DNA from: Verrucomicrobiaceae bacterium | GTDB taxonomy: Bacteria; Verrucomicrobiota; Verrucomicrobiia; Verrucomicrobiales; Akkermansiaceae | Direction: 5' to 3' | Length of the DNA stretch: 64,000 nucleotides | NCBI GenBank assembly: GCA_027487435.1 | Contig: JAIYDP010000498.1 | Location: 1-64,000 of the forward strand | Part shown: piece after piece, positions 885 to 52,033 of the stretch | How the letters are laid out: every line of letters begins with the position of its first letter | Position numbering within the stretch: position 1 is the first letter of the stretch | Translations under genes and position numbers: made by a program | The notes under the pieces: model-generated | The model's input: the letters and a program-made list of their open reading frames with translations, nothing else | What the model was told of the DNA's origin: nothing | Database searches by the model: none

Positions 885-3800
885 TCATGGCAAAAACTTT
901 CTCGCTGGCATGAAATCAATTTGATTTTGAAGAATCTGCAAAATAAATTGTGAAAGGGAAGAGAACTTGTTTGAAAACATGCGATTCGAGTCCTGAAAGA
1001 TCTTCTTTTTTCTTGCATTGCAAGTGAACAATGAAATGAAGATAATCCCAAATGTTGTGGCCACGCGAAACGTGAACAAGAAAACCTACAGAGTGAGAGG
1101 GCTGTGCTTGAGACAAACCTTCGGAAAATCGCAAGTCGACTTCTTCTCTGGTAAGACCACAAATGAAGCATTTTGATTCGATGTCACGCTGCAGCTTCTC
1201 CCGTAGTTCTCTCAATGCTTGAAAATGAGTTCAAATCATAAACTCGCAGATACTTTTAAAGGCGTCGACAATGATCCCAAAAATGATCTTCATGATAACG
1301 GTTGTGAAGACCACGAAAAAGAGGAAAGTAAACAAAATTCTAGGAAGAATGCGGACATTAGGCCATGCCAACAGGTCACTGTCTATCCAAGGCAGACGAT
1401 CCATTGCATTTCCAACATCTCTGGTACGGACCCTTCATTGTAAGAGCAGATACAGAGACATCAAGTGCCCGATGTCAAACACGAGCAAGACACACGTCCA
1501 GACGTTCTTGCATGGAACTGCAAACTCACTGACATCTTGTGCAATTGTATTCCCATGACGGATCGATGATCGGCGAACCTTACCGTTGAGAACAACAGGG
1601 TGCACAAACTTGAAAAATGTCAGCAAATAGAAGAAATCCAACGACTCCGAACCAATACAATATCACCACTCCAAGTGCCAACTGCTCTGTCAGAACAAGG
1701 CAATTATCAAGAAAAGAACAGTCTGCATTAGAGAACTTCCTTCCTGTAGGATAGCTTTCAAAACGTACAACGCGCTTTCATATCTGTTGAAAATTTCAAG
1801 CAATTGGACGCCAAACAACAAATAGATCCTAACGAAATTTAGAAAAACTCCGCGCAAGTACCATGAATATTGCGTCTGACGAAAATAGAGGCAGACAGAG
1901 CTGATGACAAGAGTGCTGGACCTCCACAAAAGCTTCTTGTCCCTCAGTAAAGCGCGTCCTATCAGAGCCAAAGACTTCTTGCCCATTGCCCGCCCATATC
2001 GCTAACTCATGAATACAAGAAAACAGGTATAGAGGACCTTTCCTGTGATGGCAATAGATACTGAAGCAGACGTCTGTGGAAGGGTCTCAACCAAATGCAA
2101 CAACCAAACGCAAAGCTCTAAAAGAAAGCACAAAGGTGACAATAAAAAGCGGAATGAGTCATGCCATGATTGAGAGGCAAAGTGAACGGTCTGAAAAGGC
2201 CCCAGCGGGTTTCTGTTTTGTGAGTTAACGACATCTTCCAACACACTTTTCAGTATCGTCAATGTAGACAAGGCAAGAGCTGAGTAGAATGTTGATGAGG
2301 ACGAACCACGTCAAGTAAATACGGTCAAGGAAAGACGCAATTCGAAGAAATCGCCCGAGTAATGGTGCTTTGTAGATGCTAAGTCTCCATTCCAATTGGC
2401 TATGGAGCTCAACAACTTTATGGCAAAAGTCGGTCAACCGAGACGCATCGTTAGATCTGTAAATGTCAAAAGCGACCGCGAATATGAACCTATCCACCGT
2501 GGACAATATCTCCTTCTTTTGTAAAGTTGTAAGCCCAATGCTAAGAGGTGGCTTAACAAAAAAGCACTGCGCTATAATCAATCCAATCGAAAAATGAAAA
2601 ATACCCGCTCGAGCTCTCCATTAGAATTACTTATCTCAACAACACCAATGCGCTTACAGAGCCTGTCAAAAAATTTTGGATCACACGACTGCTTAAAACT
2701 ATTCAAAATCTAAGAAAGTAAGGTCGACCTTAGACGCTCTTACATTGGAAGGGCTCTCGACGCGGTCTTCCTGACATTCATTTGACTTCAGAACGAGAGC
2801 CAGAAAGTTGGAAGCCATTCTAGTGCATTCGTCAGTGAATGAGACCTCATTCATATGATTCATAGAAACGAGATTCGCAACGGAAGAAACCTCAGCAAGT
2901 TAGCACAGAATGTTGTTGAACATACAATGACGCTAACATCAAAGTAGGGACAAAACATCCGTTTTCGCAACAGTCGCAAGTTTGACGATGCTCCTTCAAG
3001 CAGACTGCTTAAAAATACTGAAACAGATTCCTGCCGATTCATGAAGAATCTACAGCGGCCTTGGCCAAAAGGGCCTTGCAGACAAGCGAACATATACAAT
3101 CATTGTGTGCTTACGTGTGTCTTGAGAAGAGAGTTACGAAGAGAGATTGCATGAATCCGATCAGCGTCAAGAGCTCCACTCTTCACCAATGTTTGCTGAA
3201 ACATGTTTGTCATTTTCAGGTGGCGGCAAGTCGCCTCGACGACCTTTGCTCCAAGGAGAACAGTCTACGACATAAGGAGGAGAAAGTATAGACAAAGACC
3301 TGTATCTCCTCGCAAGGCCCTTGACACAATTCTGAAAACGTAGACAGGAGCTACATACGTTACACTGAGCTGACAGCTCTGAGACCTGCTGTAGAAACCG
3401 TTGTGACAATCTCACAACGTGTGCTTCAATGAGAGAGAAATCAGCTTCAGAGCTAACTACATAACTCATTCGACTGTATGTCTCCATGAGCTCCGACAGA
3501 GTATTGGATGACCCGCCACTCCTTGTCCGAAAAAAATCCTGTCAAGTGACACAAGTTATTCAAATGGATGTGTGAATATCGTACCTGCATGGGTCGGAAA
3601 TGACCTTCACAACAAAGTTGTATCAGTCGCATCGCCTTAAGAGCGCCGTCCGTTTCCAAAAGTGATCTCTCTTCACCCGGAGCAGTCACATCCCAGACTG
3701 GCACTGCTTTCCCTTGCAATAGCGAACATCCGTCGCCCTTGCTTCCACTCGCTTTCATAGCTTCAAGTAATTCTTGACTTCCGCCATTCACTAGTCTCAA

Positions 3801-6800
3801 CAAATATCCCAAAAAGTAAGTGCAGCGAGTGTCGTCCTTGAGTAATTGATGAAAAAGAAGAGACTGCTTCGTTAACAGAAAACCATCTTGAGCTTCCACC
3901 TGAATATTATCGGAATCATGCGCACGAAGCTCGCGAAATGTACAGAATTTTTCGAGCGCTGTGACGAAAATATTCAAACAATGGGGTTGAATATTAAGAG
4001 AGAAATGGTCAACGTTCGTTTCGCATGCCATCAGCAAATCGAGAACCTATATTGATGAAAAAAGTCATTCAAAGCATTCTACTGAATCGAAGAGTTTGCT
4101 AAAATCAACTAAGGAACGCAAGGAGGGCGGATCTTTCCACGATTCGAACGCAAACGAGAGACAACGCAAAAGATTCAACAAATGGGACAGATTCTGAGGA
4201 GAGCCAAGCTGTGGCCTGTTACAGTATTAGTCAGCCCCACTCACTTCGACAAAGTGCTGCACAACCATACCTTGTCATTGACTCTACGATAGGTTTCATA
4301 ATCGGTAAATGCAACCTCAAAACGTTTGAAAGCAGCTTATCTTCTTCGGCGACACTGAGTCTGTTTGCCCTGCCTATGTGAGAAACTGCTGCACGAATAG
4401 ACAACAATTGGCGGCAAAAATCTTCATATGCGCGCAGAACAAAATCACTCTCTCCCGTTCGTGAATTTGCTGGTCTGTCATCGACATACTTCTCTTGAGG
4501 CTCTGAAAAAATGCGTGCTCGGTTGGAAAATAGTCCAGAAAGCTCGGTGAGAATCATCAGATGGCCCTTTCTCTCATCTCCACAACTGGAAAAAACATGA
4601 GAACTTGCTGTAGACATGCTCTTGACGCATTTTTCTGCCATTGCCCAATGCTCAGAAAAATCTTCTAAAAAATTTGCAACTTCAATGGCCGACGCCAAGC
4701 AATCCACAACATCATGCAGATAGTATGAAGCCCTTGCGAGAAGTCTTGGATTCAATCGTCTACTACGGTCAAAATATGGCGGTGTTGCAGCTGCACTCCT
4801 CATCTATTCGCAACAATGCATCAAAAAATTTAGAGAAGAAGGAGAGCAAAAGCACATAAAACTCCTGCCGTTCAAAGGCTGTCTCACAGGGACTACAGAG
4901 TCAGATTCGCACCGGCGACAAACTCTGAAAACCCCGAGTCTCCATCACTCTCGATAACATGGATACGCGTTTGGAAATACTTCGACACTACAACAACAAT
5001 TCTTGAAAGATCAAGCACGCGAGCCGGCTCTAGTTTGCTGCTTCCCGTATTGAACAAACACTAGACTCGTGAAAAAAATTCACCACAATACCAAACCCTG
5101 AGAACGTATTTCAATACTTCAGCTCGAAGTGGAACGGGATAAGATGTTTCAACAACCATTGATAACATCTCAAGAGGGTCCAAAACTTTGAAACATCGTC
5201 CCAAGAACGACTTCAGAATCAATGTTGGCATCGCAACAAGACCTTATCGCCCCCAACACAAATCTCGGCCATCAGTCGAAGGAAGGCTTGGGCAAACATG
5301 AAATTATCGGACGATAACAGAGTTGCTGAGATTCTGGAAGATTAAAAACAATAAAAATACATCAAATCGACTTGAGACTTCCACAGATTTCGAGGTTTTG
5401 CTCAATAAGTTGCAAGCAATAGGCTTGCAAATTTTTTAAAGGGGCGCCATCACAAACGAGGACGTTCTGGGGGATTCAGGAAAAGCAAACGAATGGACGC
5501 ACGGATAAAGAATTCAGAAGCTCAACGCTGTCAGAAGGACTCGCATGCCTCAAGAGCATGTCAAACAAGAGGCCGGCATACTGAGCTCCACGTTGACTGG
5601 ACAAAATTCGATTTCTCTTAACGTTCAATCAAAGGCAGAACAACAGGAACATGAAACACTGACTCCATCAAATATCGAACTTTTCGACACAATATTCGGT
5701 TGTTCGGATCTCCTTTGGCAAATTTGAGAAATGTCGAAAATTCCACGGCAACACATGACTGAACTTGGGGACTTGTGATGCACATCTGTTCACGTCATTC
5801 ACAGAAGGTGAAATAGTTCACAATAGACAACAACGAGAGAGAAGACATGACAACATTCAGAAAATTTCCTGAAGTTATCGTCTCCATAGATTCAGATTGC
5901 AGCAACAGCCTACAACGAGCCTGGGACCTACTCAATCAGTAGATTGCCTTGACTCTAGCGAACAAGAACAAAGAGACGACTTCCATGAGATGCCTGTGAA
6001 CTCCGTGAGCAACCAGGATGCTGAATCTTGAAGATGCATCACGCCAAGACATGAAATCGAAATCTTTCTCTGTGAGGTCAATTCGAAAGCAATTAAAGAA
6101 AGAGTAGACGCGGAGAGGTATCATTAGAAGGAAGAATCGCTGCCAGTAACTGGGAGAACCGGTGGTAAAGCAGAGATTCCTCAGAAGACATTTCAGCATT
6201 TTCTGGTTGGGACGCAAGTAAACCACGCAAGTCTTGAAGCGTAAATAACATCTCTGATACGAGATGGCGGTGAATGTGAACTTGAGTAGAATCCACGAGA
6301 AGCTGCACACGCTGTAGTGTTTGGCATAACGAGAAACGCTCTCTGTAAATATTAGAGTTGCGACCGATTGCGGACGTCAGCAACTCGAGTAGAAGACCTA
6401 AGCTGGGCTTACACAGCTGATTCACAGATGATTCCAGTAAACTATCAATCAATTCCAAATCATCCAACGAGCCTAATTGTAGAATATATTCCATCATTGG
6501 ATCTCGCAGGCCTTTGTACATCTTTGGAGAGTTTTCCAACTTCCCTTGCGAGTTGCTACGAGAATATCGAGACGATTCTACCTTTTCAGAGAACATCACA
6601 TCACTCAGCATCGAACCAAACTCGAACATGAATGATCTAAGAATCATACGAACGCGATCATTTTTGCGGATGCTTCTCATCATCGAAAATATTTCGCACA
6701 CAGACTTGCGAGCGACCTCCTAAATGAGAACTAGAAAGAAAGATTATCACTTCCAAGAGATTCGGAAATCTAGAATTTGAGCATTTAGCCAACAGGATGC

Positions 6801-9800
6801 GAAGAGGCTGAACCAAAACATGAGATTCCTTAGTAACAGCAAGCTTTCGAAAGAGAATCTGAATACCATCGTCCGGCACATCTTCGAAGCCTTTGAATTG
6901 CATAGCAGATATTCTATTGGCGCTCCTGCATCGACAGAGCAAGTTCCGATACCACTTGTTTCCACAACGAGAGATAACGGCAGATATAGAGTCTTCAAAA
7001 TATCCCCAGCAAACCAGGTCTCTCACTAGATGCAACAACTAGAACCTCAGAAACGAAAAACATGGATGAACAGACAAAACAAAAATGAAATTGTCTTCAT
7101 TGATGTCATCGGATTCAAATGCTTCGAATTGACGCAACACCCATGCCTATCGAGTTATGAAAAATAACAGATCGACCAACCTTTAAAAAATCAGCGACAT
7201 GATCACTGACGCGCACAGGGCTGGGGGGATTCGTACCAAGCTCAGAGACGACCTGTTCACTAAGAACGCAAACACGACAAATGAACGTGTAAATTTTGAA
7301 ACGAGTCTACGCGAATCGCATCAGAGCGCAACTGAGGCGACACGATGTGTGCACATCGAGTAAGATCGACAAGCACCTCAACAACTAAGGCTGGTAATGA
7401 ATCAACATGGTCCAATGTTGCCATCAAGACAGGTAGGGGAGGGACCACGTGTTCAATATCTGTTCGATGTGTTGCAGAGAGCCCCGCGTTCTCATGGTTC
7501 AATCTCAACTTCTGTTGCACATACCTGCAAAATGTTTGCGATCGCTGTCATGAAGCATATCCAATGAGTACGCTCGTCAGTCTCAACACAAAAAAAGACC
7601 CAAGGATCAGATTCTGTCTGCTCCTCACCCAATCCTTCCCGAAGAATTCGGACGACACCAAGAGAAATCTAATTCTGTGAGAAGGATTGCTGATTTCATC
7701 AACTGCCAAGCGAGGTATATTCCTGGACAACGTCTTCAAGCAGCCAATAATTGCATCCACGACTGAGGGGCAACAGGACTGACCTGCGAACGACGCGAAA
7801 AACTTCAGTTGACTGGCAGTGAGACAAAACGTGTAAGTATGTACGCTGTTGAAGTCGGCGAAAGTTGAATAGCTCGCAGAAGAACATCATGCACATCACC
7901 GCAGGTGCTAATCTTGTTCAAAAGGACATCGGATGGCAGTCGGTCAAAGAAGTACAACGAAAAGAAGTCAAACCCGAACCGCTGCGACTGTAATACGTAA
8001 GGGGCGCTGGGAAAAAAAGGTACCAAGAGAAAAATCTCTTCAAAATAATTCAAACAAACTGACAAACAATACGACGACGCTTCGCACAACCCATCGATCA
8101 AATGAAAAATAGATTTCGTCAGAACCACCCCTTCTGCGTCGAGAACAAATGCAGGAAATGCCCTTGTGACTACATTCAAGAACTTTGAAAGTGAGTCTGC
8201 TAACAAAAAGGAGAATACAGATGCAGATACAAGTAACTCAGACCGACTCCTTTTCTCTTTCTGGTCTTCACACAGCCAATTGGTACAAGACGAAATTATA
8301 TACGACAACGATTCCAAATCGCTTGCAGAATTCTTCTCTGTCAGGTCGAAACTCAAAATTGTCACAATCGAAGCATCACCCGAAACTTGGACACCGGTCA
8401 TGCTTTCAAGCTGTGCGACAATGGTCATCACAAACCAAATTTCCCGCTGTTGCTGCTGACAAACAACGTCAACAGAAAAGAAGCATGAGGCATCATAAAC
8501 TGGAGAAATCTTGACAATTGAGAAAATATGATGGCGACTGACCTGATAGTTCAAATATCCATTTGCATCAAAACATCCTGAGAAAAGGCCCAGAAATTCG
8601 TCAGTGCCTTCATCGTAGACCTCAATCACGGAGATGCAGCGAGAGGAGAACGTTGACTGAAACTCAGGGGGAAACACAAGTATCATACATGTTGAATGGT
8701 ATCGACATCGAGGCTAGGAGAAATTCGAAGACGCAATACGACAGAACGATGCTGTATGGAATTTCGAGTGTTTGCAATGCTCCTGGAGGACCGTTTCAAC
8801 GGCTCAAATTCGAGATTGACGATGTCATTGTTTTCGTCATAATTCAATTGACTTCCAATCCACGTGACAGAGACTCCATGTACGCAAGATGCGCTCCCAT
8901 CGAGTGGCTTTGACTCCGAATCATCCGAAATTCTAAAGAGTTGATTGGAGATCACGTGAGTGAGACGAATGTAGTCCAAGACCTTCATCATCATGAAGTA
9001 GGTTAGACGCCCTACATATGGGTACTCTTCCGTTCTCCGTAGCGGCTGTGGCTGAACTGGGTGCCTCAGCCAGCTCCGAAACCTTCTTAAAGTAAAAGAG
9101 GAGCCGCCCTGACGGCACAGAAACACTCGTGACTCTCTTGATCGAACGTTCTCCTTTGGGCCTTCCATTTGAATTTTCAAAGGCTCTCCATAGTTAATCT
9201 ACCACCCAGTAAGTAAGCATGGGAATATCAGCCACGACCTCAGCTAACGAGCGCCAATCACTGCCATGAAGTAAACACAAGGATGCGTTGGGACAGCCGG
9301 GGGATAGGTAAATTTGGTTCGAAGGTAAGCGTAGATCCGAAGTCAGCGAAAAAAATAAGTTTGATCGCAAGTGTAGCAGCTACATGTTTGAGCGACACGA
9401 ATTCGCAAACAACCTGTATCGTATCATTTCCTCTGACTTGTCGCCCTCTAAAGAACTCTTGCTCTTGCAAATTAAGGCTCTGCTCCTCTCTTGCCTCCTC
9501 CTACATCGACTTAATATCCAAACGAGGTGGCAAGAATTTTATTGTGACACCTGAAGCTTGCTTATTCTCTTGATGCGTCTGAGGACTTTGTCCTCTCTGT
9601 CATCTGCGTCAGGCTGAACACTGTTCAGAATCGCGGGATATATGTAAGATCTTTTCGCGACTACTTCAAACAAGCAGTCTATAGAAGTCATTGAGATTCT
9701 TCAGAGGACTGCACTCTCGAGGTCTTGAGGGTGCATTACAATGGAGAGAGGAACAAGAGAACACAATCGGTTGTTCGACAACCTAGGGGCATCAATCCCG

Positions 9801-10125
9801 TTGTTGCTGAACAACCCGTCCCCTGAAACAAGCGATTGGAGTTCGCTACTCTGCAAAACCACAATATCGCCAACGCAAACGACCCCGCAATCGACGATTT
9901 CTTTCGGATAATACATTGAGTACTAAACAACTCAAAAAGATTACTCGTTTTGTCAAAAATAGCGATGATGACGGCCAAACGACTTGCTTTTGTCTTCCTC
10001 TCGTCTGCAGTTTTGATGATGATACTACGCACCTCGATAATGCGTTCTGCTACTGTCTGGTCTCGGGGCTGGCCATTCTGATCTTGGTAGACCTCCAATC
10101 TCTTGAGCGAGCCGGGAATGTCCAT
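885..10125 (-). CDS. ITPR: Inositol 1,4,5-trisphosphate receptor (intracellular calcium-release channel)
   Basis: This is a full-length IP3 receptor expected in the endoplasmic reticulum membrane, split by many introns of about 31-36 nt (one upstream intron is over 100 nt). From the N-terminus, the suppressor domain is visible at 9700-9916 (VCVGDIVVLQSSE), a MIR-like segment at 9258-9470, long helical RIH regions through 4.2-8.7 kb, and the RIH-associated signature LKAMRLIQLCCEGHF near 3600. Six membrane segments follow between about 2.4 and 1.3 kb. The C-terminus is diagnostic: IIFGIIVDAF (S6), CFICGL, GHNIWDYLHFIV and SHVFKQILQNQIDFMPARKF. These match the vertebrate receptor only when introns of 33 and 31 nt are removed, which places the stop at 885. 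The GGGVGD selectivity filter is replaced by SLDVGN. The first ATG (10125) lies 14 bp from the divergent neighbour; a later ATG at about 9910 is possible. Confidence 0.92.
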
Positions 10126-10139
10126 CACATCTGCTGCTG

Positions 10140-12566
10140 ATGGTGACTATTCTTCTGTCTTTTCTCATGTTTGCAGATTTAAACAGTGATCCTGATTCAT
10201 CGACGAACGAGTTCATTGACTCTTCACCGGAAGACAAGGGCTTGAACGCTGTGAACGAAGCAAATCGAGCTGGCAACCAGCAGCGGAAACAGGAGGAGCG
10301 CTCTGAGTATTTGAAAGCATTTGCTGATGCCAGAACCGATTTGGAGAAGCAAAAGAAGCAGAATGAAGCCCAAAAAGTTGCAGAAGAGCGAGCTCGTCGA
10401 GAAGCTGATGCTTTACGACGCAAGAGAGAGCAAGAGCGTAGAGAGAGATTATGGTGGTCTCAGAAACGCTACTATGATGCGTTAAAGAAAACAAGGTCCG
10501 GCGAAAATGATCTCATTGCAAAGAGAGACAATGAAATTAGCAAGCGATGGCTGCAAACGATTACAAATTCTCGCGGATTCACGCTTCGGGTCAAGACTCA
10601 CAAGAAGACAAATAGAATCGTTGTCCCTTTTCGTGGCATAGTTTACAATAGGCTCCTCGGCAGTTCTTCCATGTTCAAGAGGCGAGGGTCCGTTCCGAAA
10701 ACGACTCCTGCTCCGCATGAGCTTGATCATAATGTGACGATTGGGCCTGTACCGCAGGACGAGTGGCCAGATATGATGAGACGGCAGCCATGCCCATGCA
10801 ATGGGCTTCCAGGGTGCCCATGTGAATTTCCAAACGTCACATGGGTTCCGACAGAATGGTCTAAGTGCGGCGCATTTTGTGGTGAAGGTCTGAAGACGCG
10901 ACAGTTGAGCTGCCGGTAAGCTGCACTGCACATCTCTCACATCAAAGTGACGTTAATGGTCTAGAGGTTCCTCCCGAGCGCTGTGCCAAGTACATCAAAC
11001 CCGCTGTCATCAACCGCTGCAATGCTGGCAGACCGTGTCTGCCGATCGATCATGAATTGGAATTGCGTAAAGTCGAAGGTCCTGATTGGACTACGGCGCG
11101 ATGCCCTGAGGGAAAATTTCCTGTCGCAGGAGGCTGCGATGCTATGTCACCTCCGTTTCGATATCAACGAAATTCGATTAATGACGATGGAAGTGGATGG
11201 ATATGTGGAGGACTTGGTAGTGCGAAGGTAGCATCAGTGTTGTGCGCTCCTCGTGGAAAGCACTGCGCGTGGTCGTCGTCTGTTGGCACTGACAGCACTT
11301 CTCAGGGATGTGCATCTGGGTAGGTTCTACTTTAATTCTGTCAGTACTATTCATTTTGCTCCACTTCGATGTTCGATTACCACGCATTGATTGCGCTCCT
11401 CAATTTGTAGATATTCTATAATTTCTGGGGGCTGCGATAGTTTCTCTCGTCCACACTTCGCTGGATCATCTGGTTTCAAGAGCAGTGAGGTATGAAATTG
11501 TTATGTCTTGCCTAAGCTTGAAGTACGTATGCTCCGGCAATGGCGGTGATAAGAGAGTTTATTCTCTCTGTTGCCCAGTCCTTCCTCAAACGTGTGAAAG
11601 GCGTATTCTGAGAGGTCCTGGAGCCGTCGAAGTCAGTTGTGGTGATGGCTTTCAAGTGGTTGGTGGCGGATGTGAGGTGCTGGGGTCTCCGTAAGGAGCT
11701 CTTTTTCAATGGCATAACTCTGCAGAGTGGAGATTCAATCAAATCTCCCAATTGATGTGAAGACATGGAGATGCAGTGGTAATTCAACTGAGAAAATTGT
11801 TTCTATCCTGTGTTGCCGACTCCCGCCTACTTCGATTGCCGGCAAGATGTTCATCGATGGCCGAAGTAAGTTCTGTTCGAGTTTAGTAATGGTGTAGCGT
11901 CGTGGTTTTCGCCGTTGGAGACTGCGAATGTGTCACTTTCATTGGGAACAATGCATGGTGGAGATGAGTTCAATGACATTTCGCACTTGAATCAAACTCG
12001 GTCTTACCGTATCGCAAAGATTTCGTGTGGGTGGTCCAAGTTCATGCAAAGCCTCACGGTGACTTACGCGGACGCTGTTGGAAGAACATACACGTTTCCA
12101 AGAGGTAACTCAAAGGCAGAAATGTCGGCCGACTTGGCTTTGTCTTCGATTGAATTTGTTCATCAAATTGAGGTGTTTTCTACTCCTGAGAGTGCTGTGT
12201 TGTCGTTCATCATCCAAACAAGCGAAGATCAGAAGCTAGTTTGTGGAAATCCTGGAAACGTTGCTCCGTCGTTTCAGTTCGTAACAAGAAAATCTGGACT
12301 TGTGGCAGGTTTTTCTGGTACTGCTGGAAACTGGATCGACTCTTTGAAGGTAGTTGTTGCCCGAAGGTTGCGGGGTTTGGAGAGGAAAGATTGAATGCCT
12401 TTGTATCCAATGTAAAGTACAGTAATTCTGAAGGGAAGATTGTCTTGAATGTTCGTGTTTGTTGGGTAGGTCTCTCTTTTTCAATGACGCCCATAAGCTC
12501 GCAGGTCTCTGGCATCAGACGGAAGGATCGAAAATTGATAACGTGAAATGGGGGTGCAAGATTTAG
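10140..12566 (+). CDS. Secreted multidomain protein: coiled coil, VHKK/PFRG box, TSP1, PCSK9-C-like repeats, jacalin-like lectin domain
   Basis: The protein begins with a short hydrophobic signal (MVTILLSFLMFA), then a charged coiled coil rich in E, R and K. Next is the family box (RVKTHKKTNRIVVPFRG), a cysteine-rich linker (IGPVPQDEW, PCPCNGLPGCPC) and a thrombospondin type 1 repeat (EWSKCGAFCGEGLKTRQLSC). Exons at about 10965-11900 encode cysteine repeats of the form CPEG..VAGGC...GWICGG and YSLCCP...VSCGDGFQVVGGGC, which resemble the PCSK9 C-terminal modules. The exon at 11900-12360 (MHGGDEFNDI, LTVTYADAVGRTYTF, GLVAGFSGTAGNWIDSLKV) has the layout of a jacalin-type beta-prism lectin. A final segment (RLNAFVSNVKYSNSEGKI, VKWGC) weakly recalls an H-type lectin. 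The stop at 12566 is uncertain; open frames continue to 13226. It is a paralogue of the gene at 13708-15573. The likely role is an extracellular, carbohydrate-binding matrix or surface protein. Confidence 0.8.
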
Positions 12567-13707
12567 AGATTTTCGTCAGAAGCTCTTCACCAAGAGGTGG
12601 AGATTATCATGAAAGAAATTGGTCTATGCAGACAGTTCCTTTTAGCACTGGTGCTGCCCTCTCCATCGATCATCTCCAACTCTGTGGGATGAGGGTTCTC
12701 AGTTGGTGTCGTGAGCGGAATACTCGAACGGTTTGCAAGGCACAGCAACTCCCCAAGCCAACCCTGGTCCTGCGGATCGGTCTGACCAGTGTCCTGGCAA
12801 ACGAAGCAAATATATGCCCACACGGGTCCACGAATGTCATGAGGTGAGTAGGACCTGACTGAATAGTAGTTGCAGCAGTGTTGCCACCTTAGCTTTTTTC
12901 TCCTGGAGCCGGTCCTCAACGCCGTCCACTTTGGTCGTCGGCTTGGGCTTTCTAGTTTCCGTTGTCCAAATCTTCCCCCTCTTAAACCTTACAGTCCAAT
13001 TGAGCTGCTCTGCCATTCACGGAATTTGTCCACAGGTGATACAGTCCTGCGTATCTTAATTCTGCCATTTCCCTTCTCTCGGACGTCAGACCTCCAACGC
13101 CGGCAACCTTTTCGGTTTGAACACGTCTCCATCGCTCTATTTGCGAAGATTTCCTGGACGCAGAACATAAACCTTGTCGCCGCCTCCGTATTGCCTTCCG
13201 GAAACACATCCGTTTCGGCTGAATAAGAATGGTCGTAGATTGGCTTAAGTAGATGTCCAATCTCCCTCTCGCAGACCCCGTGCCCCTGTAGTCCTGTAGC
13301 CCCGGCCACACAGTAGCCCCCGGCCACACCCGTGGCCACACCCGTGGCCACAAGTAGATTGGCTTTGATCGCTGGCCTTGACCGCTTCCTGCATCGGCCG
13401 TTTTCTTTAGCTTCTTTCAAGAAAAAAGAAAATCTTGATCAAAAGTCAAGCAGACAAGTAGATGATCCAAATCCTGCACTTTCGACGTCTACATCCAAAC
13501 TTGGCCCCCCCCCGTCTCCAGCTGCTGCCCCCTCTCCAATTCTTTTCTACATTCGAGGCAAGTCAAATGTATGGACCTTGCAAGCAGAAAAAAAAAGAAT
13601 GCCAGCAACGTAAACGAAAATCGAAAGAGTTGAAACACTTGGAAGGGTCTCAGGAAAAGTATTAAACTTCAAACTTCACACTTGAACAATATTTACATTT
13701 AACAAAT
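12567..13707. other. Region between convergent paralogues, possible 3' exons of the upstream gene
   Basis: Frames on the plus strand to 13226 could be further exons of the lectin-like gene: a plausible donor follows at about 12845, and an open frame ends VAASVLPSGNTSVSAE before a stop at 13226. No family signature is visible. From 13227 to 13707 the sequence has a CCC-rich stretch, A-rich runs and a small tandem repeat, and I see no gene. Confidence 0.3.
13322..13352. repeat. 12-bp minisatellite (GGCCACACCCGT)
   Basis: About 2.6 copies of GGCCACACCCGT, preceded by two looser copies (CCGGCCACACAGTAGCCCC). It produces low-complexity frames on both strands, which should not be read as genes. 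Confidence 0.7.
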
Positions 13708-15573
13708 TCAAACAGCACCCTGGAACTTGCAGCAAACTGCCCTAACACTCTTTTGAGTTTTGTGCCCTGTGCAACGCCAAGTATCGATTGCAGAAGGATA
13801 GCTTGCATTGAAAAGGAATCTACAAACATGAGAAACACCACGAATCGAACATATTACGGAATCGAAATGGCTTTGCAGCCTCCACCAACTACCCGATACC
13901 CTTCGTCACACGAAACCTCTGTCACATCTCCTCCTCGAACCTCTTTCTCAACACAACCTGGGACTGGGTTGCAGCACAAAGAAAAGGCACGCTTGCGCCC
14001 GGGAAGATCCCCTCCACACACAAACTGAGAAGTCAATATCGAAGAGAACAAACGGAGACCGCCCGCTTGTCGAGATACATGGCAGACCCTGTCTTCGCCC
14101 CTTCGAAATTGTCACAACCACCACTGACCGCATTCCTTCTGCACAATCAGGAGGAAAACAATAACCAAACCCGGGGAGGCATCTCAATGCATTCCAAGAG
14201 GTTGGCCCAATCGCAGTGTTCCATTGGCACGTTTTCCCAACTGGAATACCACATACAGCGACAGCAGTTCTGTTGCCCTTAAAGCCTCCGCATGACCACC
14301 CTCTGCTGTCTCGAGTCGGAGAGCTTCTCTGAAAGAAAGCATCACCTGAGCTGGCGATGCAGCCTCCGGTGATGATCATAGTACGGTTTGGACATTTTGC
14401 AACAGCCCAATCCATCGACCAATCAGAGACTATTGTAAAATTGGTGTCAATCGACGTGCACGCACGAATATTGCACAGAGACTTCGTTTCCGGCTTCACA
14501 CCCAAACAATCGGACTCACCCTTCGCAGGCCGACCTTTGACCAAGCACCGGACCAGCCTGGTGCGATTCCCAGGCCCACAAAGCGTGGAGCAGTCACCCC
14601 ATGGTCCTGCATACCACATACCAGCTGTGCAAGGGCAATGCGGCATGTTGACGCAAGGACATGGTGGCTCCCGCAAGGTGCTCGGCCATTCTGTCATTGG
14701 GACAGGGCCAATGTCGCCTTCCTCGTCGTCTTGCAAATCTAGCGGTCCTGGAAGTGGTCCGTGAGGATACACGCCTCGGTATGGATGACTGATTGATGGG
14801 AGATCTTTTGAATCGAATGCCCATTTGTAGTCAGACTTCGTTGACGTTCCATCTTGCTTCGTCATTGACGAGATCAAGGCTCCGTTGCTTCCAGGATTGA
14901 ACGTCCAGTACTGCTGGTTTCCTTTTCTACTCAGAACCCCTCGGAATGGCACAATGATTCTATCGCTCTTCTTGTGGACCTTGACTCGAACAGTCTGGCC
15001 TCGAGAATTTCCAAGAGTCTGAGATATCAGAAAACGAAGGAACGGAAAAACTCGGAGAATTCTGTCTGTTATGTCGTTGTTTCTAGCTTCGATCTTTTTG
15101 TTCTCTACTTCACGAATGCGACGAAGATCCGCGTAATACTTCTTTTGAGCGGTGAAGAGCCTCGCCGCGCGCTCCCGACGCTCTTGCTCTTGCCTCTGAC
15201 GCTCGAGGCGCGCAGCTTCTTCTCGTCGCATCCGAGCCTCTGCTTGTGCTTGAGCTTCCTTCGCGATGGCTTCGGCACTTGCTTTCTCAAAGCTCTCCGC
15301 AGCTTTTCTTTCTGCAGCCGCCCTCTCAGCTTCCACACCATCCTTCGCGTTTGCAATACCACCGAGTTCTTTTGCGTTCTCCGACCTGGAGTAATCTCGA
15401 TCCTTATTTTCGTCGACGTTCGATTCCATTCCAACGTAGTCCTGCTCATGGTTTCGAGACACAGAGTCGGACACCTGAAGAGACTGCAAATTGTTATTCA
15501 TCGAGTGCCTACAGTCGACAGCAAGAAGAAGGCAGAGGGAGACGAAAACAAGAACTGCATGAACAGCCTGCAT
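13708..15573 (-). CDS. Secreted coiled-coil / VHKK box / TSP1 / PCSK9-C-like cysteine-repeat protein (paralogue)
   Basis: It starts with a clear signal peptide (MQAVHAVLVFVSLCLLLAVDC). A long coiled coil rich in A, E, R and K follows, then the family box (RVKVHKKSDRIIVPFRG) and the linker IGPVPMTEW...PCPCVNMPHCPC that it shares with the gene at 10140. A TSP1 repeat (GPWGDCSTLCGPGNRTRLVRC) comes next, then PCSK9-C-like modules (AKCPNRTMIITGGC...GWSCGG, FSLCCNPVPGC, EVSCDEGYRVVGGGC, and TWRCTGH...VCCKFQG). The first exon runs uninterrupted for well over 1 kb. Removing an intron of about 38 nt (GTAATATG...TTTGTAG) joins the last exon and gives a stop at 13708. The jacalin-like domain of the paralogue is absent. 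It lies tail-to-tail with that paralogue, so the pair looks like an inverted duplication. Confidence 0.88.
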
Positions 15574-15870: not shown

Positions 15871-18499
15871 CATGAGATGCAGAGGAGGGTTGTCCCTGCT
15901 TTTGATATTTGGCCATGATGTCGAACCTCAGCAGTCAATTGCAGACTGCAGCTAGTGCACCAGTTCTCGAAATCTGTCTGCAGCTGTATGCGGCTCTTCT
16001 CCAGCATTGCTTGGAGGTTTTCGATTTCTGCCTTCAGGTCTCTTAGAGAAGCAAAGCTGTCCTTGTATCTGCAAATTTAGGAATCATTTCATTTTCATAC
16101 TTCTGCTTCTCTGCATCAATTTCTCGTTTTAGCCTTGATTCCTGCGGATCTTCAGCGTCGTCAAGTGTACCCTGCATCGCCCTCTCCATGCGCAACTGCT
16201 CTATTTGACACTTGACGGTGTCTGCTTGTGAGCTCGATCAAGGCAAAAATACTAATTCTTGATCTGCTATCATTGACTGCCTGTCCCAGCCGCTTCGCAT
16301 CCTCGTATTTGTCTCGAAGCAGTTGCTTATTCTCCTCGATCACTTCGTTTTTTCGATAGCTTTTTCGGAACACCTCAAACGCTTTGTTTCGATCCCTCAA
16401 TAATTCTATCAAGTCAACACTCTTTGAGGAACATTAGATGTACCGGGGTCAGAGAGTGCTGATGACTCAGACTCCTTCGCTCTCCTGACTCCAACCGCCA
16501 CATCCCGCTTGCCCTGTTCCGAAACAATCGGTTTCTCCCGAGATTCTCGGGATTCATCCCCAGGATCCGCCACTCCAGCTTGCACAGTTGCTTTTCCTTT
16601 CTTCAGCATCGACACGAGAATATCTTCGTTGTCAAAAAACATCGAACGGCAGAGTGACTGATTTCGTTATCGCGCTGCTGAAGCTGCAATTGGAGTCGCT
16701 TGATTTGATCTTGAGCTTCCTTTGACACGAACCCATCTACATCGGTCAAGGCCGACGAAAAGGGCGCACCGTCTTCACTGTGCGCTTTCGAACCAGACAA
16801 TAAACCCTAAACGAATGAGTAAACAGAAGAGGAAAGAGGGACGAACCTTCAACACGAAAAAACAAAATCGAATTTTTGTCATGTCAGCGCCAACCGAGAG
16901 TGCCGCATCTGGCGCAGGATCGTCTACGTAAGCCTTCACCATTGCAGTGAGTCTTGGACGTGAGGCTGATCAGAGGGGCTTCTACTTCTCTCTGTCCTCT
17001 TCTCCAATTCCTTCCGATTCGACCTGGACATCAGAGCGGAATGCGGACTGAGTACTGCATCTCCCTTCAGCATTGATATCTCCTCTTTCAATTCAACAAT
17101 TTCTCGCTTAAGACGCTTAATCAGTAGCTGAGGATCGATTTCTTCGTTGAGAGAAACGGCATTGCGAACACAGGCTACTCTCTGAGCAAATCTGCACGTG
17201 GATAAACTTTCCTTGGAAAGTCAGATTGGGATGGCTTCCTCTGACGTCCATTTGATCGGTATCAGGATTAATTGTAGCAACCATGGACGTCCTACAGTTG
17301 CCACCAAGGGAATCTCGTAGCACCGATGTCCTGTCAAGTAAACATTGCAATCATAAGGCTTCCCACATCATAGAGTTTCTGTAGGGAATATGAGACCTTG
17401 CCTTCCCCTGAGACCTCTCCTGCAACGCAATGATGACCATCCTAAATCATGAATAGGACAAAGAATAGACCTGCTCTAAATAATGTAGAGACGTGTTGAT
17501 GAACTTTGCCTCCCGGAGCAACGTTCCAGAAGCATTTGTTTTGTGAACTCTCTCAGATCTGAAAAATTAGAGAAGGAGTGGCATGTCATACCCTGCCAAA
17601 TCGACGAGATGCACTTTGGAGCGCCGAATCATGTCGGATCCCGCCTTGATCGCAGTGATGTAGATTGTAAAGATACAATGAGAACCTACATCGTGAGGAC
17701 TTGTATGACTTGTAAACGAGATGATGCCAAGTTCATTGGAGTCTCCGAAACCGTTCGATTCGTGTCCTCAGGGGTCAAATGAGCGACGAGAGTAAAAACT
17801 CCAAGAAAGAGCAAATTTAGAGCCTCTTCTTCATTCTGGGCCAAATGAATAGAAATATTCCTAAGTACGATATCGCCCTCTTCATTTTCATAGAGAGAAA
17901 CACGTCTTCAGCGTCAGAGTGGTGGAGTTGAGTGAACGGCAGATCCTCTAAACTTTTCACATCATCCGAGGATACCAACAGGTCATGCCCGACTTCATTG
18001 TATATTTCTAGGTATGAAATATGAACTTGGTACGAATAGTCGCTCCGCTATCAATGTCAAGTGGCGAACACCGTGACCCACCTTCGATACTTCACTGTAA
18101 AGAGCAGACAACGTCCTCGGAAGCAAACCTCGATCAGAATATTTTTCAGGACCACCAGTAATCGTAAACGTCTTGCCAGAGCCAGTTTGCCCGTATGCAA
18201 ATATGGTTCCGTTGTAGCCCTCGAGAGCGCTGGAACATTTCAGCCTCGAGGTTGTGAAAGACAGACCCTTGAAGAATCGGCCTTGCAACTTGTTCGAAAA
18301 CGTCCTCCTGCTTCGTCGAAGTATCGAAAATGCTACTGAACAGAAACTCAAAATGTTCTTTGGTGTTGTTGATGAGCCCACCTCTTTCGTCTTTCGGGAC
18401 ATCAAACGAGATGCGATTGCCACTATCGATCGCATAAATACCAACGGATTTAGGAGTTGGCCTCAATCTCAAGAAAACATCAATGCGTTGGTCGGACAT
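15871..18499 (-). CDS. Kinesin-9 family motor (KIF6/KIF9-like)
   Basis: This is a microtubule motor with an N-terminal head and a coiled-coil tail, in several exons. The head starts [14 protein letters not shown]. After an intron it shows [19 protein letters not shown] (P-loop GQTGSGKT) and [19 protein letters not shown], the wording typical of kinesin-9. The tail ends [19 protein letters not shown]...[15 protein letters not shown], which closely follows the conserved C-terminal segment of KIF6 and KIF9. The last codons (LLCIS) and stop at 15871 follow in the same frame. Kinesin-9 members are known from motile cilia and flagella, so the gene suggests that this organism makes a flagellum. The start codon at 18499 is 103 bp from the divergent MTHFR gene, so the two probably share a promoter region. 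Confidence 0.85.
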
Positions 18500-18602
18500 T
18501 TTCTTAATTCCAAATTCGACCTTCCGCTAACAAACAAATATGAACTAGAGATGGTCAGATGTACTTCTCCGAAGGCAAATCCACTTCGCTTCGTTTGCCA
18601 GA

Positions 18603-20707
18603 ATGAAGGTGATTGAAATCATCAGAGGCCATGAAAATGCCGGGACGCACTTTTTTTCATTGGAATTCTTCCCGCCCAAGACTTCTTCAGCGATTGTGTC
18701 TTTGTATGAAAGAGTCGCTGCTTTGGACGACTACAGCCCTGCGTACATAGATGTAACTTGGGCAGCTGGGGGCCTCAGTGCCGAATTAACTCTTGAAATG
18801 AGGTGGAGGCACTTTTTGCTCTCTGACATCGTGCAGTCGGAACTTTCAGCGAGAATGCTGCATTGAAACTCAAATGCATCTGACCTGCACCAATGTTGAT
18901 CCTAAGAGGGTGAAAGATGCCCTCTCTGAAGCGAAGTCTTGCGGAATCCAGAATATTGTGGCTCTAAGAGGAGGTCTCCTTGAAATTTATAGGAATTGAT
19001 GTGACCAGATGCGCCTTGGGGTCAGGCGAAAATAGAATTTCCTGAGAGCGAGTTTCATTATGGAGTTGATCTCGTCAAGTTTATTCGATCTCAATACAAT
19101 GACCACTTTGGCATTGTGGTGGCTGGCTATCCTGAAGGCCATCCAGAGACCAAAGGATCCGAAGAAGAACTTTTTCATCTGAAGGAAAAAGTTGATGCTG
19201 GCGGTGATGCCATCATGACGTCCATGTTTTACGATCTCGACATCTTTCTTGCGTACGTGAAACGAGTGCGGGAGGCTGGAATTACTTGTCCTATTTTGCC
19301 AGGCATAATGCCTGTGCATTCATATGCTCTGTTCAAGCGGTTGACAACTGTATCCAAGGTCAAAGTACCGGAGGTATGGATGAATGCAATTGAAGCTGTG
19401 AAAGTTTGTCCTTGTGTTTTGTTTTGATGCCAAGGACAATGACGACATGGTCCGCCATGTTGGTAATCAATTTATTGCCGAAATGGTCAAGCAGCTCTGG
19501 CAACATGGCTTTCTTGGCATTCACATTTTCACTCTGAACAACGAGAAATCTGTCTCTCAGCTGTTGGAAATGATTGGATTTTCGAAGAGGCAATCTCACC
19601 GGTCTCTTCCATACAAGCCGGTATGCAATCACGTTCATTTCTGACTCAAATGTAGCGCATTCGATCGAATGTTTGGGTGAAGTATTTCTTGTGTTTACTC
19701 CGCTAGGAGGATGTCCGCCCAATCTTTTGGTCTAACAGGCCATGGAGCTATCTTGCGAGGACGATGAGCTGGCATGAAGTTCCCTCTGGCAGATGGGGAA
19801 AGCACACCTCCACGGAGTATGGCGACTATCACGTGGACAATCTGGACAAGGCCCACAGCCTCTTGGTCTTTTCTCGATGGCTTTTCTCACGTCGAAGAGA
19901 GAAGATCGCGTACGCATTTGGGGCACTCCTTTAAAGTCGACTAGTGATCTTAATTCCATATTTTTGGGTACATTTTCGGGTTTATTGATTGTTTACGAAA
20001 ACTAGGGTTTTTGAAAGGAGACATCGAGAGGCTGCCTTGGTGTGATCACACTGAAAAGGAAACGGATTTAATCAAGGTCTCACTGATTTTGCTGACGTCA
20101 ACACCTGCAGACGACGTTGCTAACGATGAATGACCACGGGTTGCTCACCATCAATAGCCAGCCTGGTCTCAATGCAGTTCCATCTGAAGATCCTATTCAT
20201 GGGTGGGGTGTTCCCAAAGGCTTCATTTTCCAGAGGGTCACTTTTGGATTGCTTCTGAATTCTAATATTGCAGTCATACGCCGAGTTCTTTTGCTCGCCT
20301 GAGCTTGCCTCTAAGCTTCAATCTGTGTTTGAAGACGACCACAGTATTGTCATGTACGGGCTCGATCGCAATGGAACCCAGATCAGCACTGTTGATTCGT
20401 TCGTGGCAGCCCTTTCTTGGGGTGTATTCCCAAATTCTGAAATTGTGCAACCAGTTGTTGCAGACACAGATGCATTCAAAGTCTGGAAAGTATTTTCCTG
20501 CTCCGACATGATCTGATTTCACAGGATGAAGCATTTTCCCTCTTCGAAACGGAATGGCTTGATTTGTACGAATCGGGATCTGATTCTTACAATGTCATCA
20601 AAACCGTTATGGACACTTTCTACTTGGTCACCTTGGTGGACAACAATTTTGTGTTCCCTACGTTGTATGCAAAGCTTGACATGTTCTGCAAGGTCATGCT
20701 GCGCTAA
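18603..20707 (+). CDS. MTHFR: Methylenetetrahydrofolate reductase
   Basis: This cytosolic flavoenzyme reduces 5,10-methylene-THF to 5-methyl-THF for methionine synthesis. The catalytic barrel is clear across several exons: [73 protein letters not shown] and [13 protein letters not shown]. The eukaryotic regulatory half follows: [59 protein letters not shown], then after an intron [11 protein letters not shown] and [12 protein letters not shown]. Both halves are present, so it is the long eukaryotic type. The frame ends at 20705-20707, 32 bp before the start of UNC50 on the same strand, a gap short enough that the two transcripts must nearly abut. Confidence 0.95.
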
Positions 20708-35325: not shown

Positions 35326-36486
35326 TTACAATTCGTTGTGACTGGCCCGTGTTTTGAAGTCATCATGGTACCAGTCGCACAATCTACAAAGGTTCCAGCG
35401 GTATGATGTCTCTCCAGTGATCAAGCCGTCAAATGCGTCCTTTTTTCCCTTCCAATTGAGTAGCTGAGAATACTGGATAGGATCCTTTGCAACAGCAACA
35501 AGGTGGCCAGCTAGTTCTTCCGGACTGTCAAAATAGGATGCATCAACAACGCCCCCACTCGGAAAGTAGTCCCTCCAATTAGGAGCACCCAAGTACACTG
35601 GCACCACTCCGATTTCCAAAGCGTCGTACACCTTCTCAGTCACCCAGTCATATTCGACGGAGTTTTCAAAAGCAAGAACGAAGAAATAGTCTTTCATGAT
35701 TTCGTTTTTCACCTGAATTCTTTTTCGAGGATCTCTGTTCAGTTCTTGCAACGTTGCCGGGATCTCTTTGTTGTTGTTGCAGCTTCCGAAAGAATCGATT
35801 TGCATCACGCTCATCATTCGAGACATCCATATATTTCGGGTATCCCCGTGGCAATTAGAGATGAACGCACACGCTAACTTCGTTGGAAACCGCTCCCGGT
35901 GCGGACGTAACAACATTTCCATGAGATTATGCGGCACAAAGGTAGAATGCATATCGAAGTAAGCTCTTGAATATCCTAAAGTCAGATCGAAACCAAATGT
36001 TGGAAATTCTTCTCGAAGATTGGAAATGTAAGGATAGTAATGGCTGCTTTCTGAACAGAGCGAGACAATTGCTTGGCCTTCACGACGGTGTCGCGGCTGT
36101 GATTTCCTTACAAACTTGGCGTTAATGGCAAACACTAAGATATCAGACTGCGACGCGAGATGCGGTTCTCGAGAAAAAAAAACGAGAGATCCACTAGGGC
36201 ATCGCTCCCACCGAGGACATCTCTGACAAGATCCAGTTTCGCACATACTACATGTTCCATCATCTTCAGTCCCATCGCTCATCACTGTCCACTCTGCAAT
36301 AGAACAAGCCCGGCCGTCAACAACGGGCTCAATCCCTCGCGAGCAATTTTGAACTGAATTATACGAGACCAGGCCTTCATTGCACGTTGTATCCAAGCTA
36401 TCAGTGAAACCAGCCCCAATCTCAGGTAGCTCCGCTTGAATCGTTGTAAAAATGAGAAGTACAAAGTTGACTACATTCCACAACAT
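35326..36486 (-). CDS. GT10-family alpha-1,3-fucosyltransferase-like enzyme
   Basis: A 386-residue protein in a single exon, which is rare in this window. The N-terminal hydrophobic segment (MLWNVVNFVLLIFTTIQA) is a signal peptide or anchor. A cysteine-rich stretch (GTCSMCETGSCQRCPRWERC) follows. The GT10 core is clear: FGFDLTLGYSRAYFDMHST, CAFISNCHGDTR, IDSFGSCNNNKE, FVLAFENSVEYDWVTEKVYD and VPVYLGAPNWRDYFPSGGVV. FENS...D..TEK is the GDP-fucose-binding signature. It is expected in the Golgi lumen, adding fucose to N-glycans or related acceptors. Absence of introns may reflect retroposition or late acquisition. It starts 24 bp from the stop of the cyclase-like gene. Confidence 0.88.
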   Translation of the reverse strand: MLWNVVNFVLLIFTTIQAELPEIGAGFTDSLDTTCNEGLVSYNSVQNCSRGIEPVVDGRACSIAEWTVMSDGTEDDGTCSMCETGSCQRCPRWERCPSGSLVFFSREPHLASQSDILVFAINAKFVRKSQPRHRREGQAIVSLCSESSHYYPYISNLREEFPTFGFDLTLGYSRAYFDMHSTFVPHNLMEMLLRPHRERFPTKLACAFISNCHGDTRNIWMSRMMSVMQIDSFGSCNNNKEIPATLQELNRDPRKRIQVKNEIMKDYFFVLAFENSVEYDWVTEKVYDALEIGVVPVYLGAPNWRDYFPSGGVVDASYFDSPEELAGHLVAVAKDPIQYSQLLNWKGKKDAFDGLITGETSYRWNLCRLCDWYHDDFKTRASHNEL

Positions 36487-48861: not shown

Positions 48862-49713
48862 ATGAGGGCGGCCCTTGCAGGACTGCTCCTGTTTTTCTTC
48901 GCTCTGGAATCTGTGAGGACGTGGGAGAGTCTGGACTCGGAAGATGCCACTATGCTTTCGCTTGCTGGCAGTGGAATTGACGACGATTCCTCCTCCAGCG
49001 AGTCGATCGAATCCATGGAGGACGCGGTGGACAGCAGCAACGATAAACAGCAGTCAAGAGGAGATAACTTTGACGATCGGCATGTTGGTGGATATGGCTC
49101 CATGACTGCCATCGCCAGGGCTCGCGATGATGAGGCTCGTCGGAGGCAAGAAAGTGAAGCGCGTGCAGTGCGAGAATTTGAGAAGGCAGAAGAAGCTGCG
49201 ATCAGGGAGTCCAGAGAGCAAGAGCGCCAGAGGATGATTAGGAGGCGCCAAATGGAAGAAGAGGCCGCGAGAAGAGCTGCAATGCAAGCAGAAGCTGAAA
49301 AAAGGAGGGCTTTCGAAGCGAATAAAAAGTATTGGGCAGCCAAAAGGAAAGCTGAGGAGGAGTATCGTAAGAAGGTTTCTGAGCGAGATGCCGAGATATC
49401 ACGACGTCAACGAGAGGTATCGCTTTGCAAACCTTGTCATCCATTTTGATTATTTTTTTTTGCTACGTTCCATCTATTTCTGACCTTGTAGACTGTCCAG
49501 AATCATAGAGGCGTGGAGATACGCGTAAAGGTGCACAAGAAGACGGATAGGATTGTTATCCCATTTCGGGGAGTCCTATTTAAGCGCCCTTCTTTCATGC
49601 AGCCGAATATTCCATTCAATCGAATCCCTGGTCTAGAGAAGGCAGCCAAGAGGAGGCGCCGGATTTCGAAGAGGCGGGCGAAGCAGACGAACAATCGAAG
49701 TCGCCGCAAGTAG
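48862..49713 (+). CDS. Short member of the coiled-coil / VHKK box secreted family
   Basis: The signal peptide MRAALAGLLLFFFALESVRT is followed by an acidic, serine-rich stretch and a long charged coiled coil (ESREQERQRMIRRRQMEEEA region). After a 75-nt intron containing a T-run, the family box RVKVHKKTDRIVIPFRGV appears. It is nearly identical to that of the genes at 10140 and 13708. The protein then ends in a strongly basic tail (AAKRRRRISKRRAKQTNNRS). TSP1, cysteine repeats and lectin domains are all absent. It therefore defines coiled coil plus box as the core of the family. The intron just before the box is in the same place relative to the box as the end of the coiled-coil exon, but the paralogues lack it. 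Confidence 0.82.
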
Positions 49714-50672: not shown

Positions 50673-52033
50673 ATGAGGCTCGCTCTGTGCGTGCTTGTTA
50701 TTGGATTTGTCTTTGAGGCGTCTGCAAGAAGCGTCACTTTGGCATACGAAATTGCACCTCCATTTGTTGTCAACACATCCGCTGGTATAGGAGGCGCTGC
50801 AGTTGATGTCTTCTCATTTTCTGCCTTGCTAAGCAATTGGACCTTCTCTTTCCGAGACTATAAGACCCTTTGTCCCACATGCACTCGGCCTGAAGAAGCT
50901 CTTGGGCGGGGAGCCGATTTCGCTTTCTCAATGTCACATGAAAGCTCTGAGCTTGAAGTTCGATACGACAGAAGCTTTCCTTTCTACGAATCCTTTTACC
51001 GCGTCATGGAGCTCTACAATGGGGATCGCCTTGACGTTAGACAGTTTGACCTACCCATTAGTCTAGTATGCATTCTTTTGATTGTCTGCTTTGCCACCGC
51101 AAACCTCCTCTGGTTCGTCGACATCTTATTTGCCTCCTCAGCCGAGGCTATTTTTTCTAAGAATTATCGAAAGGGCATATTTGACTCTCTTTGGCTCATC
51201 ATCACGACTGTGGCTACTGTAGGGTATGGAGACCGCTGCGCAACGACAAAATCAGCCAAAGTTATGTCAGGCAAGCACGCTGAGCCGTCTGACGTTGCAG
51301 CCTCATCAACCTCATGTGCATCGGAGCCGTTCTCTTCAGCGTCGTTTCTGGTGGCTTCGCTTCGGGCTTTTCTGTGCTACAGACATCCCCTCCCAAAATA
51401 TCCAGTGTCGCTGACATGGCCAACAAGAGGCTTGCGACGCTGCCCGTCGTCTCGGTCATTTCGTACCTGAAGAATGTCTCCTTGGAACCTCTTGTCACTC
51501 CCAACGCCTCTTTTGCGCAGCAGGCTGTTTTGTCGTCGGTTGTCGCTGGGCTTGTGTTGGATGAGCCGCTTCTTCGGCAAATCCAGTCGTCGTCGTCGTC
51601 GAGGATGCGAATTACCGCCTCGCTTCCGTTGCGAAGAGAGTATTTTTTTGTCGCTCCTAGCAATAGCACGTTGCTGCGAGGTCTTAACACGGGAATCCTC
51701 TCACTTAGAGCGGACGCGGTCCCGTACTCGGCTTACAACTCAATTCTTGATCGATGGCAAATAAGCGTCATCAAGGAGCCGCTGAATGCGCCGAAGAGCG
51801 GGCTGAGTGGATGGGTCATCATTTTTCTGATTGTGGTTGGCAGCGTGACAGGCTTTTATGTTGTCATCATAACGGCGCATTGGATTCGATCGAATTGCCG
51901 TGAGAGGAGTCTGAGGGGGGGTCGGGCGGCACATGCGGACTCAGACGATTCGATACTGGCATCGAAGGCCCTTGCTGTGGCGGAGACGCTCGCCCTGCAA
52001 AATCGCTCGCTGCGGAGCAGTCATCGAGGGTAG
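50673..52033 (+). CDS. Glutamate-receptor-like channel with a potassium-channel selectivity filter (GluR0/AvGluR1 type)
   Basis: The protein has a signal peptide (MRLALCVLVIGFVFEASA), then a short ligand-binding lobe S1 (VTLAYEIAPPFVVNTSAG to VRYDRSFPFYESFYRVM). A membrane helix M1 (LVCILLIVCFATANLLWFV) leads to a pore loop, LWLIITTVATVGYGDR. After a 34-nt intron comes M2 (VILINLMCIGAVLFSVVSGG), followed by a second lobe S2 of about 130 residues and a last helix (GWVIIFLIVVGSVTGFYVVI). S1-M1-P-M2-S2-M3 is the ionotropic glutamate receptor plan without the amino-terminal domain. TVGYGD at 51216-51233 is the potassium-channel signature, as in bacterial GluR0 and the rotifer AvGluR1. The ligand cannot be told from sequence. 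Expected location is the plasma membrane. Confidence 0.85.

Follow-up and report, generated by a model that had tools for sequence, protein, structure and literature searches.

A conserved box shared by three modular, probably secreted proteins encoded on a probable eukaryotic contig within a prokaryote genome bin

The stretch of DNA analyzed here, hereafter called the window, is 64,000 nucleotides long and represents most of contig C373 (69,539 bases) of assembly GCA_027487435.1, filed under Verrucomicrobiaceae bacterium. It contains three genes whose products follow a shared order of parts: a hydrophobic signal-like stretch, an acidic region, a predicted charged helix of about 100 residues and a short conserved box, followed by exchangeable ends. 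In gene 1 (9965..12394, + strand) the box is followed by a module that we call EWP-CPC, a thrombospondin type 1 (TSP1) domain, three cysteine repeats and a jacalin-like lectin domain; gene 2 (13708..15573, − strand; 575 aa once spliced) has the same order and ends with the three cysteine repeats. Gene 3 (48862..49713, + strand; 258 aa) has a Ser-rich acidic stretch and passes from the box into a Lys/Arg-rich tail. The boxes were located by tblastn and profile searches at 10557..10652 on the + strand in gene 1 (TITNSRGFTLRVKTHKKTNRIVVPFRGIVYNR), at 14923..15018 on the − strand in gene 2 (TLGNSRGQTVRVKVHKKSDRIIVPFRGVLSRK) and at 49492..49587 on the + strand in gene 3 (TVQNHRGVEIRVKVHKKTDRIVIPFRGVLFKR).

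That a box is common to these three genes had been claimed in a preliminary description of the locus, and the searches of the window bear this out. The copies match each other by tblastn at E 9.2e-11 or better, the next-best matches of the box queries in the window being at E 1.1 or worse, and a profile made from the three boxes gives 71-77 bits on its own copies and at most 8.3 bits on all other pieces, the set scanned being 2214 stop-to-stop pieces drawn from the window, the contig end and another contig of the same assembly, C240. Pairwise identity reaches 19/29, 18/29 and 20/32 in the box (genes 1-2, 1-3 and 2-3, respectively), against 24/55, 12/53 and 25/55 in the main part of the helix, 13/31, 10/31 and 11/31 at the helix end, and 7/61, 8/61 and 18/61 in the N-terminal region. 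The box is thus the best conserved part of the three proteins; the EWP-CPC module, unmentioned in the earlier description, is nearly its equal (17/30 between genes 1 and 2). Third codon positions of the box are only 34-44% identical between the window genes and the same codon is used at just 7-9 of the 19-20 shared residues, from which it follows that the copies are old and that their protein sequence was retained; recent duplication, named beforehand among the explanations of the conservation that would refute the family, does not account for it.

The box corresponds to no named domain in the databases searched, as had been supposed. A Pfam-A search of the three spliced proteins at E up to 10, in which program filters remove most matches above about 0.1, returned TSP1 and Jacalin together with weak matches to DOR (0.056), DUF2080 (3.1) and Edc3_linker (6.6); none was significant over the box, where DUF2080, in gene 3, was the sole match. 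Profile comparison of the box with the PDB gave nothing better than E 0.42, and a text search of the literature that combined the letters VHKK and PFRG found no paper, which is weak evidence only. No confirmed relative was found in a collection of viral contigs (queries: box, EWP-CPC, P0002 and the C240 protein) or in a collection of prokaryotic genome contigs (queries: box and EWP-CPC), and among 57 genomes, namely this one and 56 relatives at the level of genus, family or order, the box profile matched its own only (1/57). Since the searched collections are prokaryotic or viral, this absence says little about eukaryotes. Within the assembly, at E up to 10, four places match the box profile; 12 match the EWP-CPC profile, three of them strong and the other nine at E 0.397 or worse. 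Since the strong places had themselves served as query rows, all that these searches show is that no other strong copy was detected. The box is a modest orphan module, real, old and conserved, in a known kind of protein, the modular secreted adhesive protein. Proteins of this kind are common in protists.

The introns of the gene models, inferred from reading frames and GT-AG sites, are mostly very short. Gene 1, both ends of which are inferred, is proposed to have seven introns and to encode about 711 aa. The first intron (36 nt, 10055..10090) was placed by eye, and the second (34 nt, 10143..10176, GT-AG) had been taken as coding; the later ones are of 32, 91, 34, 35 and 32 nt, including one inside the TSP1 domain (10916-10947, 32 nt) and three in the cysteine repeat region (11320-11410, 91 nt; 11490-11523, 34 nt; 11691-11725, 35 nt). 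The start previously given for this gene, 10140, is probably wrong, because the residues VTILLSFLMFA that follow it lie within the 34-nt GT-AG stretch, whose length is that of the other introns, and are most likely an intron. Gene 1 probably starts at 9965, with a better signal sequence: two Lys/Arg residues precede the hydrophobic core there and none at 10140, although crude hydropathy (2.59 vs 2.48) does not separate the two starts. In gene 2, a phase-0 intron of 33 nt (15019..15051, − strand) lies immediately before the box, and the 11 extra residues read at this point are its translation; three others fall in the cysteine repeats (14139-14170, 32 nt; 14025-14059, 35 nt; 13820-13857, 38 nt). 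Gene 3 has a phase-0 intron of 75 nt immediately before its box (49417..49491, + strand), at the same site and in the same phase as in gene 2, whereas gene 1 lacks an intron at this point. The introns of the second and third cysteine repeats of genes 1 and 2 occupy matching places, as judged by eye. In contigs such as this one, in-frame introns of 32-38 nt can be mistaken for coding sequence.

The charged stretch that precedes the box, 94-101 residues long with an Ala content of 12-22%, had been described as a coiled coil. In gene 1 it corresponds to 10233..10547 (+ strand), as indicated by the ion-pair test and by an AlphaFold2 model of the segment 10227 to 10916, computed from a five-row alignment in which the gene 2 row included the 11 residues of translated intron and the C240 relative was entered as two pieces, a repeat row being removed. 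The model contains an unbroken helix over residues 3-107, with block means of pLDDT of 80-97 for residues 11-100. Spacing of opposite charges at i+3 and i+4 scores 22.5, 18.0 and 28.5 in genes 1, 2 and 3, and none of 5000 shuffles of each sequence, with a mean near 0, attains these values, a comparison with random order only. The observed hydrophobic a/d periodicity is reached by 290/500 and 371/500 shuffles in genes 1 and 2, where it is no better than chance, and by 55/500 in gene 3, where it is borderline, in a simple test of our own making that counts Ala as hydrophobic. Because the heptad signal is poor in genes 1 and 2 and the ion pairs are far above chance, a single alpha-helix (SAH) is more likely than a coiled coil, and the stretch resembles SAH (ER/K) domains in its charge, its i/i+3 and i/i+4 ion pairs and its long modeled helix (SAH properties as outlined in part of PMC5812594), a putative class assignment founded here on our shuffle test and model. 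A genuine coiled coil, with the box capping an oligomer to give a multimeric scaffold as first proposed, is rather unlikely; the single long helix of the model and the better a/d periodicity of gene 3 would suit that arrangement, but the periodicity values of genes 1 and 2 and the extreme ion-pair spacing argue against it.

Beyond the helix, the same model has two strands (residues 109-113 and 119-124) followed by a short bridge (131-132), all at low confidence. Block means of pLDDT over the box are just 50-60, short of the confident compact fold that had been looked for, and the segments NSRG and HKKTN are placed in turns.

The remaining modules point to the extracellular space. Crude hydropathy finds signal-like N-termini in all four proteins, the three of the window and the C240 relative, in keeping with the signal peptides earlier claimed for the three genes apart from the probably misplaced start of gene 1; no later transmembrane-like segment was seen by the same measure in the three window proteins, while for the C240 protein the check covered the first 99 residues. 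The acidic region has a net charge of −6 to −10 in the three genes and includes 14 D/E and 13 S among 62 residues in gene 3. The latter protein does end, as had been reported, in a basic tail beyond the box, with a net charge of +21 from RVKVHKK to its end. Between box and TSP1, genes 1 and 2 carry the EWP-CPC module (IGPVxxxEWPxxxxxxxCPCxxxPxCPC), found by profile search at 10737..10832 (+) and 14620..14715 (−). The TSP1 domains claimed for these two genes were recognized by Pfam (PF19030) with 37.3 bits in gene 1 (10842..11040, +, split by an intron and with an approximate end) and 42.3 bits in gene 2 (14458..14616, −), the curated cut-off being 23.8; gene 3 has none, and genes 1 and 2 are the only ones with TSP1 in the whole assembly. 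The same two genes are likewise alone in carrying the cysteine repeat (C..GGC..C..CC or CA), three times each, delimited by profile at 11090..11828 (+) and 13726..14406 (−). Three such repeats in a row (C..GGC..C..CC) resemble the C-terminal cysteine repeats of PCSK9 in pattern. No PCSK9 chain in the PDB was matched by four-row or six-row repeat profiles at E up to 10; an AlphaFold2 model containing one repeat (mean pLDDT 39.1) was too poor for comparison. Finally, gene 1 alone among the three carries a jacalin-like lectin domain, previously unreported (11957..12352, +; PF01419, E 7.8e-9 and 3.9e-8), which scores 32.1 bits in the spliced protein against a curated cut-off of 22.

Compared with known systems, genes 1 and 2 resemble TSP1 repeat proteins (PF19030 / PF00090) in having one TSP1 each, in being Cys-rich and modular and in their signal-like N-terminus; they differ in that box, EWP-CPC and cysteine repeats lie outside TSP1, and gene 3 has no TSP1. 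The C-terminal domain of gene 1 is like those of jacalin-like lectins (E 7.8e-9), for which sugar binding would be a putative property here, and it sets this gene apart from the other two. A text search of the literature found no paper combining jacalin, thrombospondin type 1, extracellular matrix and protist.

A diverged fourth relative is encoded on contig C240. An open reading frame (ORF) there contains an EWP-CPC stretch identical to that of gene 2 at 28/70 positions (E 1e-10 in a single comparison), and this stretch is the firm link. A box-like stretch upstream of it shares 22-29% identity with the window boxes and is weak on its own: the bare fragment gives 7.6 bits with the three-box profile, a value reached by none of 300 column-shuffled controls, and the C240 piece lies outside the best 13 of the 2214 pieces scanned. 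The gene has a signal-like N-terminus, an acidic stretch, a basic tail (net +20 over the last 120 residues) and an intron of about 34 nt placed by eye; no charged helix was seen in it. Its contig correlates with the window at 0.94 in tetranucleotide composition, the two window halves correlating at 0.953 with each other and 18-kb window pieces at 0.974-0.982 with the whole; C240 would thus come from the same or a related organism, its composition being close, not identical. Three short loci with bacterial-family genes reach only 0.56-0.66, a comparison in which size lowers the score of short pieces, 3-kb window pieces giving 0.77-0.91.

C240 is rich in surface-type genes. At 6553-6936 (minus strand; L008), a few kb from the box gene, a signal-like sequence is joined to a jacalin domain, one of only two in the assembly, the other being that of the window contig. 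It is followed at 4503-6512 (minus) by another sequence, which looks jacalin-like by eye, includes PQPQ repeats and has no Pfam jacalin match. In the basic, Gly/Lys/Arg-rich ORF at 6914-8284 (minus), TLRVLKNARSLIVPIRT faintly resembles the box and precedes a charged stretch that looks helical; the module order is reversed and the box profile missed this ORF. Also present are cadherin-like and Ig-like repeats with ephrin-receptor-like Cys modules (16419-18674, minus) and a GT49 glycosyltransferase (2407-3405).

TSP1 and jacalin domains are usual in extracellular adhesion proteins. Taken as a whole, the family can tentatively be read, at somewhat less than even confidence, as a small set of proteins that a protist secretes for its cell coat or extracellular matrix, and of the modular extracellular scaffold first envisaged it is the modular and probably secreted nature that finds support. 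The expansion proposed along with it would have to be read from three copies and one diverged relative in a bin that is incomplete. In such proteins the helix would act as a rigid monomeric spacer of the single alpha-helix type, and the box would form a short beta element with a basic patch exposed by its two conserved turns, NxRG and HKK[ST][ND]. Through this patch the protein might dock on something acidic in the coat, which could be a polysaccharide (acidic or sulfated) or the acidic regions of its sister proteins, and the variable C-terminal ends would then provide adhesion or charge; the docking partner is proposed with less confidence than the overall coat or matrix reading. One strict match to XBBBXXBX, a form proposed for heparin sites in a passage of PMC3412806, occurs in every one of the three window boxes.

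Several points weigh against these proposals. One B position of the XBBBXXBX match is occupied by His, which the same passage qualifies as 'rarely His' (PMC3412806); when each box is shuffled 20000 times the pattern appears 824-1361 times (4-7%), and it is missing from C240 and, the three boxes being related, counts as one observation. The AlphaFold2 model of the box is of low confidence, the ion-pair test contrasts the helix with random order only, and coiled coils contain ion pairs too, as stated in part of PMC5812594.

A further step would make the box an extracellular assembly module, so far without a name, in an uncharted lineage of protists, clipping differently equipped secreted proteins, with lectin/TSP1 or with a polycationic tail, to one shared coat polymer. 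This is doubtful; if true, coat composition could be altered by exchanging the ends while the docking element stays constant. A short constant module common to lectin/TSP1 proteins and a polycationic protein would offer a new handle on surface building in an uncultured eukaryote.

Among the other explanations, the box might be a sorting or processing tag, which would route differently built secreted proteins to a common compartment or coat, or offer a protease site at the basic HKK cluster. One short box preceding such different C-terminal ends (TSP1 plus repeats, or a basic tail) and, in genes 2 and 3, directly following an intron is what a tag could look like, but the conserved hydrophobic residues of RI[VI][VI]PFRG reach well past a simple basic cleavage site, and the empty literature search speaks faintly in the same sense; we regard a tag as rather unlikely. 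Less probable by a good measure are biomineral or scale-matrix proteins, in which the acidic Ser/Asp stretch and the Lys/Arg tail would form a mineral-templating polyampholyte anchored by the box. The acidic Ser-rich region of gene 3 and the strongly basic tails of gene 3 and C240 are suggestive of this; against it, there is no mineral link, and the three spliced proteins have no Pfam match to such a family. The weakest idea, a derived AbrB/MazE-type swapped-hairpin element suggested by what we take to be a likeness (a basic strand, then a DRIVIP-like core), a nominal pairwise hhalign P-value of 0.02 and the DUF2080 match of gene 3, is barely credible and was not supported, as the profile-profile similarity (probability 2.35, just eight columns aligned) was equaled by 8/200 column-shuffled controls. 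That comparison used 26 MazE_antitoxin-family sequences from 30 listed loci, leaving out L058, L066 and L071, whose matches are confined to the profile's later part, and L074, which is below the cut-off.

The protist origin assumed by the cell-coat reading is suggested by the content of the assembly. It measures 9.39 Mb at 82.38% completeness with a listed contamination of 0.61%, nine congeners measuring 2.9-4.4 Mb. The introns and the RRM and RING genes of the window, together with actin-family genes on other contigs, make it probable that the window is a eukaryotic contig inside a prokaryote bin and that the eukaryotic contamination is large; eukaryotic DNA, possibly several megabases of it, would then be filed under a prokaryote species bin. 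Because the six loci with actin matches range from 48 to 63% G+C, possibly more than one eukaryote is present. The short introns seen here are unlike those of MAST-4, whose averages are given as 260 and 332 bp in part of PMC5269757. No light-harvesting family member was found in the bin, which says little as the genome is partial.

Other genes of the window include an AAA_16 ATPase with a weak nucleotide cyclase match below the cut-off (38461-40893, minus) and, adjoining it, a protein with TPR matches just under the cut-off (37392-38483). A signal-like sequence with an ion-channel pore segment (Ion_trans_2) at 50673-52033 looks by eye like a glutamate-receptor-like channel whose gene may contain a short intron, and a GT10 fucosyltransferase is encoded at 35326-36486 (minus).

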